A stretch of DNA of 6,596 nt from Anaerobacillus sp. GTDB taxonomy: Bacteria > Bacillota > Bacilli > Bacillales_H > Anaerobacillaceae. The position numbers and the translations under genes were made by a program. The stretch spans positions 1 to 6,596 of the forward strand of contig SKOL01000428.1 in NCBI GenBank assembly GCA_007120055.1. The letters are read 5' to 3'. Below, in pieces: positions 6-6,596 of this stretch (position 1 is its first letter; each line of letters starts with the position of its first letter). The notes below the pieces were generated by a model. It was not told where the DNA came from. It made no database searches and saw only the letters and a list, made by a program, of their open reading frames with translations.

Positions 6-893
6 ATGAGTAATGATCGAAATAATCATGATCGTTGGTTTAAGGATCTAATTATCCATTTTTTCGAAGAATTCATCATGGCTTTTTACCCCAAATTATA
101 TGAAGAAATTGATTTTAGTGAACTTACCTTTTTGTCAGAAGAACTTTTCACTGATATAATTAAAGGCGAAGAACGGCGCGTAGACATCCTTGTGAAAACG
201 AAACTAAAAGGGAAAGATGTAGCGATTATCGTTCATACAGAAACCCAAGCTTATTATCAAAAAGACTTCGCTGAGCGGATGTTTATCTACTTTAGCCGAC
301 TATATGAAAAACATCGAAAAACGATTATTCCAATTGCTTTGTTTAGTTATGATGAAAGAAAAAATGAACCTAACACATTCCAAATATCAATACCGACATT
401 ACCAATTATGCAATTCGAGTTCTTAACGCTAGAACTAAACAAAAAGAACTGGAGAGAATATATAAAAGATGAAAACCCAGTAACTGCAGCATTATTAAGT
501 AAGATGAACTACACAAAAACAGAGCAGGCTGAGTTAAAGCGAGAATTCTTTCGGATGCTAATTAAACTTAGAACAAGGTACGATAAAGCGCGAATGGCCT
601 TAATTTCTGGTTTCTTTGAGTGCTATCTACCTATCAATTTAGAAGAGGATGTTCAGCTTTTAGAAAAAGATGAAAGGGTGAAAGTCGTGGAACTTATGAA
701 CTCATGGCAACGTAAAGGGTTTGAAGAAGGAATCGAAAGAGGCATAGAAGAAGGAATTCAAAAAGGCATTGAGAAGGAACGGAAAGAAATGATATTCCGC
801 TTGCTTGACCAAGGTTGTGACATGAAAACAATCATTACAGTCACCCAATTATCGGAAAAAGAGGTTAAGAAAATAATATTGGAAAATAAATAA
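6..893 (+). CDS. Rpn/YhgA-family PD-(D/E)XK recombination-promoting nuclease (putative transposase)
   Basis: Complete 295-residue protein, a usual length for this family. The N-terminal half carries the Rpn-type PD-(D/E)XK nuclease fold: an aromatic/charged start (DRWFKDLIIHFFEEF), then RRVDILVK with Asp60, then IVHTETQ giving Glu79 and Gln81. This is the D...ExQ variant of the active site known in RpnA/YhgA proteins. Residues 88-105 (FAERMFIYFSRLYEKH) match the conserved block after the active site. The C-terminus (about 238-256) has repeated EGI/GIE units spaced by four residues, typical of the family tail, and ends in a short helical segment. Known family members cut DNA and promote RecA-independent recombination; target and role here are inferred. 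The likely promoter and ribosome binding site are seen only at the other end of the window (6506-6567), in the repeated copy of this start. A terminator follows at 901-929. Confidence 0.9.
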   Translation: MSNDRNNHDRWFKDLIIHFFEEFIMAFYPKLYEEIDFSELTFLSEELFTDIIKGEERRVDILVKTKLKGKDVAIIVHTETQAYYQKDFAERMFIYFSRLYEKHRKTIIPIALFSYDERKNEPNTFQISIPTLPIMQFEFLTLELNKKNWREYIKDENPVTAALLSKMNYTKTEQAELKREFFRMLIKLRTRYDKARMALISGFFECYLPINLEEDVQLLEKDERVKVVELMNSWQRKGFEEGIERGIEEGIQKGIEKERKEMIFRLLDQGCDMKTIITVTQLSEKEVKKIILENK

Positions 894-3464: not shown

Positions 3465-3574
3465 AGTTAAAATCTCCCTTTCTCTACTAAGTGTCCCCAA
3501 AAAGTTTTATTTACAGCTATGTTACACGAGTTCTCGTAAATTCCAGGAGTGCTATACAAATGGTGTTTTTTTTC

Positions 3575-3590
3575 GTGCCTGTCACTCCCC
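3575..3590 (-). repeat. REP-like partial element
   Basis: On the minus strand this reads GGGGAGTGACAGGCAC, close to the common Bacillus REP half GGGGTGACAGGCAC. Its partner arm is not evident. It lies 40 bases before the truncated PH-SHOCT gene, so element insertion or rearrangement may have removed that gene's 5' end. Confidence 0.45.
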
Positions 3591-3630
3591 GAAATTTCTT
3601 GTTTCACAGTAATGTTTCACAATATCTAAC

Positions 3631-4533: not shown

Positions 4534-6258
4534 TTACTCAAAGTCTTTCCCAAGCTTCCGCCCTTCTGTTTTTACTTTTTCAAATTTTTCTTGGATATTA
4601 TTCTTCTGCTTTTCTATTTCTTTGCCGATCTCATTAAAAGATTTTTTCGTTTCATGACGTACTTTTTCTTCAGCTTTGGCAATATGCCAAAAGAAATCCT
4701 TTTTCATTTGTTTTCTTACATCGTCTACTGAATGTGTTGACTCTATAATGTCTTTTAATGATTTTTCTAATAAGTCGTTATTAGCACTGTTGTTTTCAAA
4801 GAAATTTATAATTTCTTGGTAGCGTTTTTGAATCTCGTTTTTATTTACAGGAATTATTTTAAATCTTTCATACGCTTCGTCGATAGCTTTATAGCGTTCT
4901 TTGAACCACGATTTCGCCATCGCATAATATATATCTTCGATGGATGGAAATAGCCATCTTTTTATAGAGCTCGGCTTTTGGTATTCTTTCATTAACTCAC
5001 GCTCAGCCTCTTTTAATTCAACTTTAATTTCCTGAAGCACTCTCGGTGTCATTGTCACGAATTGCCTTTGCTTGAATTCAATATTTCTCTTACAATCACT
5101 AACTTTTTGGCTGTAATGTGTTTTTAGATCTTCTTGTGCATCGTTAAGTTGGTCATTTACTTTAGTAAAGTCTTTTCTTAATCGTTCTTTTACTTGTTGA
5201 TTTTTTTGATCAATAATCTTTTCGCTTCTTTCTTTTTGGTCATCAAAAGATGTGATTGCTTCATTAAAATTCTTCTCTTTAAACTTATTAGAGACTGCAC
5301 GTCCTCCCATTGCACCGGCAATACCACCAGCAACTGCTCCGATTACCGTTCCAACTGGACCAACTGCAGTTCCTACTAATGCACCGGCCTGCGCTCCAGC
5401 TAAGCCACCACCTCCAGTTCCGGCGATATCATAGCTTGCATTTTTCATTGAGCTAACAACGTCTGTATGCTTTTTTTGTAACAAATGAAACTCTCGATAA
5501 CCAGAAGTAATCGCTGTTACAACAGGAATCCCTACACCGAACGTAGAATCTAAATGGTCAACAGCTTGAACCGAGGTTTCCGTTGTTTGCTTGATCATAT
5601 CTCCAGAAATATCATCAATACTGTGAACCATTAAATGGTCAGAAAATTGAGCTGCTAAATTAGAATTCGTAATCACTGGTACATCTGGATAGTCTTTTAA
5701 ATGCTCAGAAATAACCGACGGTGTAAAACCACCAACAACTTGCCACGGTTCGCCATCAACAGTAATATCCCAACCTTCTGTCGTCGTAGATGGAGACATT
5801 TCTACATCGTGACCTAACTTTTCTAAAACATCAACGGTATACTGTTCCATGACGTAACCTTCTAATCTAGTAATCCACCCGTCGGCAGAAGCCGTATTAA
5901 ATACATCTAAATACTTATCTGAAATAAGGTTATGGAGATCATTAAACGAACTCAAATCATCGGTATGAGCATAATCTATAGCTTCAAGTACATGAGGGTC
6001 GATTTGATTTAAATAATATAGTGAAGGAATACTCCCTATAGCACCGATTGCGGCAGCTTCCTTTAATGAAACTCTGTTTGTTTTCATATGATCATTACGA
6101 GCATTATTATTAATTGTATTATTTTTTCGTTCCCAAATAAGAGTGTTATCCGCCGGTAACTGCTCTTGAACACTCTGAATTAATTTTTTCTCTCGAAATT
6201 TTTGAACAGCTACGAATCCTCCGGCTGCCACACTACTTATTAAAAGAACTTCTAGCAT
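4534..6258 (-). CDS. membrane-anchored protein with PD-(D/E)XK-like core, double glycine zipper and coiled coils
   Basis: A complete 574-residue protein. ATG at 6258-6256 follows TAGGAGGA (6272-6265), an excellent ribosome site. Order: membrane helix 1-18 (MLEVLLISSVAAGGFVAV); possible second hydrophobic helix 66-83; a restriction-endonuclease-like domain about 128-215 (GWITRLEGYVMEQY, GHDVEMSP, EGWDITVDGEPWQVVGG, YPDVPVITNSNLAAQ). Glu138, Asp164 and Gln173 fit a PD-(D/E)XK core, but the expected Lys at 175 is Val, so catalysis is doubtful. Residues 280-319 form two glycine zippers, G288/292/296/300 and G303/307/311/315/319, split by Pro301 and probably folding as a membrane hairpin. Residues 330-574 are highly charged and mostly helical, with coiled-coil stretches. 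The gene is monocistronic, with its own promoter and terminator. I know no family with this whole architecture; a membrane effector, toxin-like or phage-defence role is only a guess. Confidence 0.75.
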   Translation of the reverse strand: MLEVLLISSVAAGGFVAVQKFREKKLIQSVQEQLPADNTLIWERKNNTINNNARNDHMKTNRVSLKEAAAIGAIGSIPSLYYLNQIDPHVLEAIDYAHTDDLSSFNDLHNLISDKYLDVFNTASADGWITRLEGYVMEQYTVDVLEKLGHDVEMSPSTTTEGWDITVDGEPWQVVGGFTPSVISEHLKDYPDVPVITNSNLAAQFSDHLMVHSIDDISGDMIKQTTETSVQAVDHLDSTFGVGIPVVTAITSGYREFHLLQKKHTDVVSSMKNASYDIAGTGGGGLAGAQAGALVGTAVGPVGTVIGAVAGGIAGAMGGRAVSNKFKEKNFNEAITSFDDQKERSEKIIDQKNQQVKERLRKDFTKVNDQLNDAQEDLKTHYSQKVSDCKRNIEFKQRQFVTMTPRVLQEIKVELKEAERELMKEYQKPSSIKRWLFPSIEDIYYAMAKSWFKERYKAIDEAYERFKIIPVNKNEIQKRYQEIINFFENNSANNDLLEKSLKDIIESTHSVDDVRKQMKKDFFWHIAKAEEKVRHETKKSFNEIGKEIEKQKNNIQEKFEKVKTEGRKLGKDFE

Positions 6259-6505: not shown

Positions 6506-6534
6506 TTCACAAACATACGTTCCTGTTTTAAAAT
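6506..6534 (+). promoter_or_regulatory. SigA-type promoter of the Rpn gene
   Basis: TTCACA (6506-6511), a 17-base spacer and TAAAAT (6529-6534), five of six matches in each box. Transcription should start near 6541, about 33 bases before the Rpn-type ATG at 6574. Confidence 0.65.
6510..6523. promoter_or_regulatory. LexA-like operator 1, between -35 and -10
   Basis: The minus strand reads GAACGTATGTTT at 6522-6511, all 12 positions of the Bacillus LexA (DinR) core GAACRNRYGTTY. On the plus strand CAAACATACGTTCC matches 13 of 14 positions of CGAACRNRYGTTYC. It covers the promoter spacer, the right place for repression. Confidence 0.6.
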
Positions 6535-6539
6535 AAAAA

Positions 6540-6553
6540 AGAACATATATTCT
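6540..6553. promoter_or_regulatory. LexA-like operator 2, at the transcription start
   Basis: AGAACATATATTCT. The minus-strand core GAATATATGTTC differs from GAACRNRYGTTY at one position (GAAT for GAAC), the same change found in the B. subtilis recA box. It lies exactly 30 bp from operator 1, about three helical turns, on the same face of the DNA. Confidence 0.5.
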
Positions 6554-6561
6554 TTGTTTGT

Positions 6562-6567
6562 GAGGTG
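6562..6567 (+). promoter_or_regulatory. ribosome binding site of the Rpn gene
   Basis: GAGGTG six bases before the ATG at 6574. As 6569-6596 equals 1-28, this is probably also the ribosome site of the gene at 6-893, or of a second copy of it. Confidence 0.75.
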
Positions 6568-6568
6568 T

Positions 6569-6596
6569 AAAATATGAGTAATGATCGAAATAATCA
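6569..6596 (+). repeat. 28-bp exact copy of the window's first 28 bases
   Basis: Identical to 1-28, in the same direction. It includes the Rpn start codon (6574-6576) and the first residues MSNDRNN. It means a circle of 6568 bp, a tandem unit, or a second Rpn copy starting here. Confidence 0.95.
6574..6596 (+). CDS. start of the Rpn-family nuclease gene (partial, cut by window end)
   Basis: ATG at 6574 with GAGGTG upstream opens the same seven residues as the gene at 6 (MSNDRNN). Only 23 bases are visible. It is either the same gene met again on a circular or tandem molecule, or the start of a second paralogue. Confidence 0.7.

Follow-up and report, generated by a model that had tools for sequence, protein, structure and literature searches.

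What controls the expression of an rpn gene? In the portion of text available, the paper that describes RpnL/RpnS as a toxin-antitoxin system with anti-phage activity reports differences in expression that it does not explain and that, in its words, "suggest additional regulation" (PMC10327210). The window analysed here is a stretch of 6,596 nucleotides from Anaerobacillus sp. (GenBank assembly GCA_007120055.1, contig SKOL01000428.1), and it contains an rpn-like gene whose promoter was held, in a preliminary description made from the sequence alone, to be overlapped by two LexA-like operators.

The window begins and ends with an exact direct repeat of 28 bp, positions 6569-6596 being identical to positions 1-28. 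The sequence is thus either circular (about 6.57 kb) or ends in the start of a second rpn gene, and because of this identity the promoter at the window end is presumed to drive the rpn open reading frame 6-893 at the opposite end. The features of the locus are as follows.

6-893, plus strand: rpnL, predicted Rpn-like nuclease of 295 amino acids; D9, D60, E79, Q81 and R91 are invariant in the 32 aligned homologues.
673-681, plus strand: internal Shine-Dalgarno-like sequence AAAGGGTGA, -8.5 kcal/mol for GTG 687.
687-893, plus strand: predicted rpnS (antitoxin) of 68 codons, starting at GTG 687 and containing the four-residue repeats; called from the internal Shine-Dalgarno signal.
6506-6511, plus strand: predicted -35 hexamer TTCACA, which aligns with TTTACG of the homologues L010, L011, L012 and L005.
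6510-6523, plus strand: putative LexA box 1, CAAACATACGTTCC, over the end of the -35 hexamer and the spacer; 12.3 bits.
6529-6534, plus strand: predicted -10 hexamer TAAAAT, from the sequence and the alignment of homologue promoters.
6540-6553, plus strand: putative LexA box 2, AGAACATATATTCT, at the predicted start site; 18.1 bits.
6562-6567, plus strand: Shine-Dalgarno-like GAGGTG ahead of ATG 6574, read off the sequence.
6574-6596, plus strand: first codons of rpnL (MSNDRNN), cut by the window end; from the 28-bp identity with 1-28.

The promoter is present as the preliminary description had given it, with a 17-nucleotide spacer and matches at 10 of 12 positions. Promoter-like matches occur across the window at chance level (24 found, 22.9 expected), so that this promoter carries weight only through its conservation among homologues. 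Two LexA-like boxes do lie over it, 30 bp apart from start to start, and box 2 has the single core mismatch ascribed to it and covers the likely start of transcription. The claim that box 1 has a full core was wrong, since it too has one mismatch relative to GAAC-N4-GTTC, the B. subtilis consensus as quoted in the part of PMC4234289 that was available. Compared to the 14-mer of the earlier description, box 1 matches at 13 and box 2 at 11 of the 14 positions. The boxes are also flanked by a perfect 9-bp inverted repeat, TCACAAACA/TGTTTGTGA, at 6507-6515 and 6555-6563, which is not common to the homologue promoters in the alignment.

In order to score the boxes, we used a symmetric matrix of 14 positions derived from the operators that precede lexA, recA and uvrB in seven Anaerobacillus genomes. 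It was built from 18 distinct, hand-picked operators, weaker core matches being excluded, and includes no rpn sequence. The seven genomes represent the host genus, with the window's own genome and LexA not among them, and the taxonomic family adds none beyond these seven. LexA is encoded in all of them; three boxes spaced 27–29 bp apart precede lexA, and one box precedes recA, in all seven. A uvrB match over the cut-off was obtained in four of the seven genomes, with a box within 220 bases in three, while the fourth uvrB (L038) has no site within that distance and a 16.2-bit site about 310 bases upstream. The 18 operators score 10.6–18.9 bits, a range that includes both boxes of the window. 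This scoring, which had been proposed earlier with a Bacillus matrix, placed the two boxes as the best sites in the window, box 2 being the stronger and the next site reaching 9.9 bits. The candidate operators of the window thus resemble the host group's own LexA sites and overlie the promoter. In random sequence of the window's composition, a site of 12.3 bits is expected about 0.15 times per window and one of 18.1 bits about 0.003 times. The first of these figures is what favors a chance resemblance in AT-rich promoter DNA, an explanation that is barely credible given the second, stronger box, the conservation within the genus, and the enrichment over other open reading frames and over permuted half-sites.

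The two closest DNA relatives of the window gene, L001 (A. arseniciselenatis) and L002 (an Anaerobacillus metagenome-assembled genome), have 93% and 97% protein identity over the matched part, and both lack their 5' ends, so a comparison of near-identical promoters is impossible. L003, L004, L008, L009, L013, L016 and L017 likewise do not reach the N-terminus, and L007, L014 and L018 are the same genes as L005, L012 and L011 respectively. The six other rpn-like genes of the genus whose matches do reach the N-terminus (L005, L006, L010, L011, L012 and L015) all show a site scoring 12 bits or more, the conservation upstream of homologues by which the preliminary description had proposed to judge the boxes. 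A second site of at least 10 bits is found 26–27 bp away in L005, L010, L011 and L012; L006 has a single site, and the second site of L015 is weak (7.4 bits). An alignment of five promoters shows conservation of the -35 and -10 hexamers and of the boxes, and divergence of the DNA beyond them on the upstream side. Of the six boxed copies, L005, L006 and L012 are disrupted or fragmented, so that box conservation in these may be a relic. A later look at L001, L002, L008, L009, L013, L016 and L017 revealed no site near the opening of the 337-codon frame of L009, a divergent Rpn-like gene with a C-terminal match only; a 14.2-bit site lies elsewhere in that locus.

A repeat of some 50 bp (GTGCCTGTCACTCC...) is found dispersed, at 3571-3620 of the window, at 845-894 of L002 and upstream of the L005 rpn copy. 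It sits near rpn genes in other genomes of the genus.

Beyond the genus, rpn homologues were found in at least 68 of 397 genomes of the order, a lower bound because no more than six candidates were scored per genome and not all matches were listed. We searched 129 upstream regions (96 fetched, 26 order loci, six from the genus and the window; listed matches starting past query residue 13 were excluded) for sites that score 12 bits or more and lie no farther than 200 bases from the anchor. Such a site was found in 35 regions, whereas the rate over these stretches predicts 0.7; upstream of other open reading frames, 4 of 293 regions had one (Fisher p 7e-16, with rows that are not independent; the control frames include overlapping ones, and one control site was counted twice). 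By source, 25 of 58 genomes had a site, or 26 of 59 including the window. The enrichment thus seen across the order was also evident for the half-site itself. Among 12 permuted half-sites, GAAC formed perfect palindromes in 15 regions and the remaining 11 together in one; with one mismatch allowed, GAAC was found in 42 regions and the other permutations in 3–19. Five rpn loci, L061, L062, L109, L127 and L133 (genomes G162, G187 and G279), exhibit a second paired-box geometry, with boxes 19 bp apart.

Samples from the class and the phylum, both independent of matrix building, gave lower counts. In the class, with L174, L177–L180 and further matches that lack an N-terminus left aside, 3 of 19 regions (11 new genomes) had a site, with a background of 0 of 27,452 positions. 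In the phylum the count was 4 of 41 (about 0.25 expected on a background of 2 in 60,245 positions), a set made up of the first 26 regions and 15 other listed N-terminal matches and including L212 with just 60 bases upstream; the first 26 alone gave 3 (background 0 of 28,201). A distant rpn gene of the phylum set, L253 (G772), has sites of 13.9 and 12.9 bits that are 58 bp apart. No site of at least 12 bits was found at 94 of 129 rpn genes in the order set, 16 of 19 in the class set and 37 of 41 in the phylum set. Since the class and phylum samples are weaker than the order set, LexA-type operators, as predicted by the matrix, are a recurrent but minority trait of rpn genes, with their highest density in the window's genus and close to it.

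A protein tree of 40 full-length rows, in which the window protein forms a long branch, includes 15 rows that have a site and 25 that lack one. To account for the trait, this tree requires five changes, with at least three of them forced by well-supported branches and gain not separable from loss. Twelve of the rows without a site form one clade devoid of sites, and 13 lie elsewhere. The box-less clade has many rpn copies per genome. LexA-type operators precede lexA in 16 of 16 genomes, eight from this clade and eight with a boxed rpn gene; because the eight clade genomes examined keep their lexA operators, it is the rpn operator that is absent from the clade and the motif is unchanged.

These lexA genes also bear on whether another repressor of GAAC-N4-GTTC specificity, encoded by a mobile element, uses the boxes. 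Some genomes do have partial LexA-like matches beyond lexA, and the window appears rich in gene remnants and repeats. However, LexA is found with this same operator motif in all seven genomes of the genus and in all 16 others, and a scan of six open reading frames of the window revealed no repressor family, which makes this explanation very improbable. Searches of the window gave no near DNA match among plasmids and no distant DNA match among phages; in viral contigs one stretch fitted a pattern and none was confirmed.

The protein is named Rpn-like because its profile scores fall below the curated cut-offs: 49.9 bits for TIGR01784 (cut-off 52.1), 16.9 for PF12784 (27.4) and 14.7 for PF04754 (21). 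Plasmid homologues share 34–37% identity with it, and some of these are annotated as Rpn family. The five invariant residues have the spacing of D11, D63, E82, Q84 and R94 of RpnA, an equivalence by spacing with RpnA itself outside the alignment; these are the catalytic residues of RpnA according to the available part of PMC5350276. An AlphaFold model of the window protein has a mean pLDDT of 86.7. Foldseek found no PDB match for it at E 0.001 or better, and the weak matches include the repair endonuclease 2vld.

In the window protein the four-residue repeats precede C-terminal helices, placed by the model at 273-280 and 284-294 after the repeat helix. Such helices, in RpnL and RpnS alike, could bind DNA, and the boxes would then be the Rpn system's own operators, with the antitoxin repressing its own promoter. 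Autoregulation by antitoxins is common, and many type II antitoxins repress their own promoter. Yet the boxes share their motif with the operators found at lexA, recA and uvrB in the genus and at lexA in another 16 genomes, the C-terminal motif is retained in the box-less clade, and three C-terminal pieces matched no helix-turn-helix family. We consider this explanation very improbable. LexA control of the window rpn gene is well supported, by the likeness of the boxes to the LexA operators of the genus, by their conservation at related rpn genes and by the enrichment across the order.

The gene appears to include a second, internal start. The anti-Shine-Dalgarno energy at GTG 687 ranks in the lowest 1% among the gene's codon positions, and AAAGGGTGA and this GTG sit just ahead of the four-residue repeats. 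The predicted rpnS start aligns with M232/M233 in L010, L011, L058 and L063, whose sites are stronger. A strong internal signal (lowest 3% of codon positions) was found in the window, L001, L002, L010, L011, L045, L054, L058, L063 and L064; L062 shows a moderate signal and L061 a weak one, and L059, missed by the motif search, was left out of the scoring. The internal start of the window corresponds in place to the start of RpnS, which is M244 of RpnA in the available text of PMC10327210. From its sequence features, the window gene is best read as a LexA-repressed nuclease of the gene-within-gene toxin-antitoxin kind. Within the rpn coding sequence, TTGTCA-N17-TATAAT at 132-160 (11 of 12 positions, TG before the -10) is identical in L001 and might be an internal promoter for rpnS.

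Taken as a whole, it is very probable that a LexA-repressed promoter of the sigma-A type drives a predicted PD-(D/E)XK DNase toxin, RpnL, that would be restrained by RpnS. In the undamaged cell, LexA dimers on the two operators, one over the -35 hexamer and spacer and the other at the start site, would block RNA polymerase. DNA damage would activate RecA, LexA would cleave itself and rpnL would be transcribed. RpnL would act as the DNase, and its C-terminal part, made separately from the internal start as RpnS, would restrain it. LexA binding and damage induction at this promoter are predicted from the DNA; toxicity of RpnL and the action of RpnS are extrapolated from work in E. coli. Since two likely LexA sites are present and recur ahead of many related genes, DNA damage probably switches this toxin on. 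Of the original proposal, LexA control has gained from the comparison with genus operators, from conservation and from enrichment; the accompanying link of RecA-independent DNA exchange to the SOS response is weaker. RpnL/RpnS is described as an anti-phage toxin-antitoxin system in the available part of PMC10327210 and the window has a matching internal start.

According to the portions of the two Rpn papers at hand, overexpression of Rpn proteins in E. coli activates the dinD SOS reporter (PMC5350276) and RpnS lowers this Rpn-driven induction (PMC10327210). With LexA control, a toxin that cuts DNA would be governed by the very response which Rpn overexpression induces in E. coli, so that positive feedback is possible at a LexA-controlled rpnL. 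By analogy with E. coli, we infer that LexA over rpnL may close a positive loop. A more tentative possibility is that in a subset of Bacilli rpn acts as a self-amplifying SOS switch, an SOS-gated abortive defence that is absent from the multi-copy rpn clade. In that case leaky or damage-induced RpnL would cut DNA, the breaks would activate RecA, LexA would leave the paired operators and RpnL would rise until RpnS could not hold it. Once damage from phage or another source had passed a threshold, the cell would be committed to destroying its DNA.

The window gene shares with E. coli RpnA-D and RpnP2 the catalytic spacing, the C-terminal four-residue repeats and the internal start of a small protein; it differs in the LexA-type operators that overlie its promoter. 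The word LexA is absent from the main text, so far as available, of both Rpn papers (PMC5350276, PMC10327210). With LexA operators at rpnL promoters, the question of how Rpn expression is controlled would have a concrete answer in some of the Bacilli. The boxes have the GAAC-N4-GTTC motif in common with the lexA, recA and uvrB operators of Bacilli (DinR box), and boxes are paired both at lexA (27–29 bp) and at the window rpn gene (30 bp). In contrast to these operators, those of the window would regulate a presumed DNase toxin and not repair or division control. Toxins under SOS control include TisB, SymE and the DNase colicins with paired LexA sites, in which damage releases the toxin; DNase colicins pair the toxin with a separately expressed protective protein. 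Unlike in these systems, the predicted toxin and antitoxin of the window lie in one reading frame, and the toxin would act in its own cell and itself provoke SOS.

In a literature search of titles and abstract openings, no report of a LexA-controlled rpn gene was found among the matches listed. The available text of a gut SOS meta-regulon paper has no word beginning with transposase or nuclease (PMC3998124). In a C. difficile LexA survey, one unnamed "Transposase" has a GAAC....GTTT site (PMC4234289); from the part of the survey at hand, this may be an rpn gene or another kind of gene. Toxins under SOS regulation are known, and an SOS-regulated gene-within-gene DNase toxin-antitoxin system is new as far as seen here.

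Two further regions of the window were noted. Overlapping minus-strand open reading frames at 1266-1870, one with a DUF7662 domain, resemble a decayed or frameshifted gene region. The minus-strand region 4534-6258 encodes a protein of 574 amino acids with a glycine-zipper stretch, the N-terminal part of which looks, by eye, like a nuclease-type fold.
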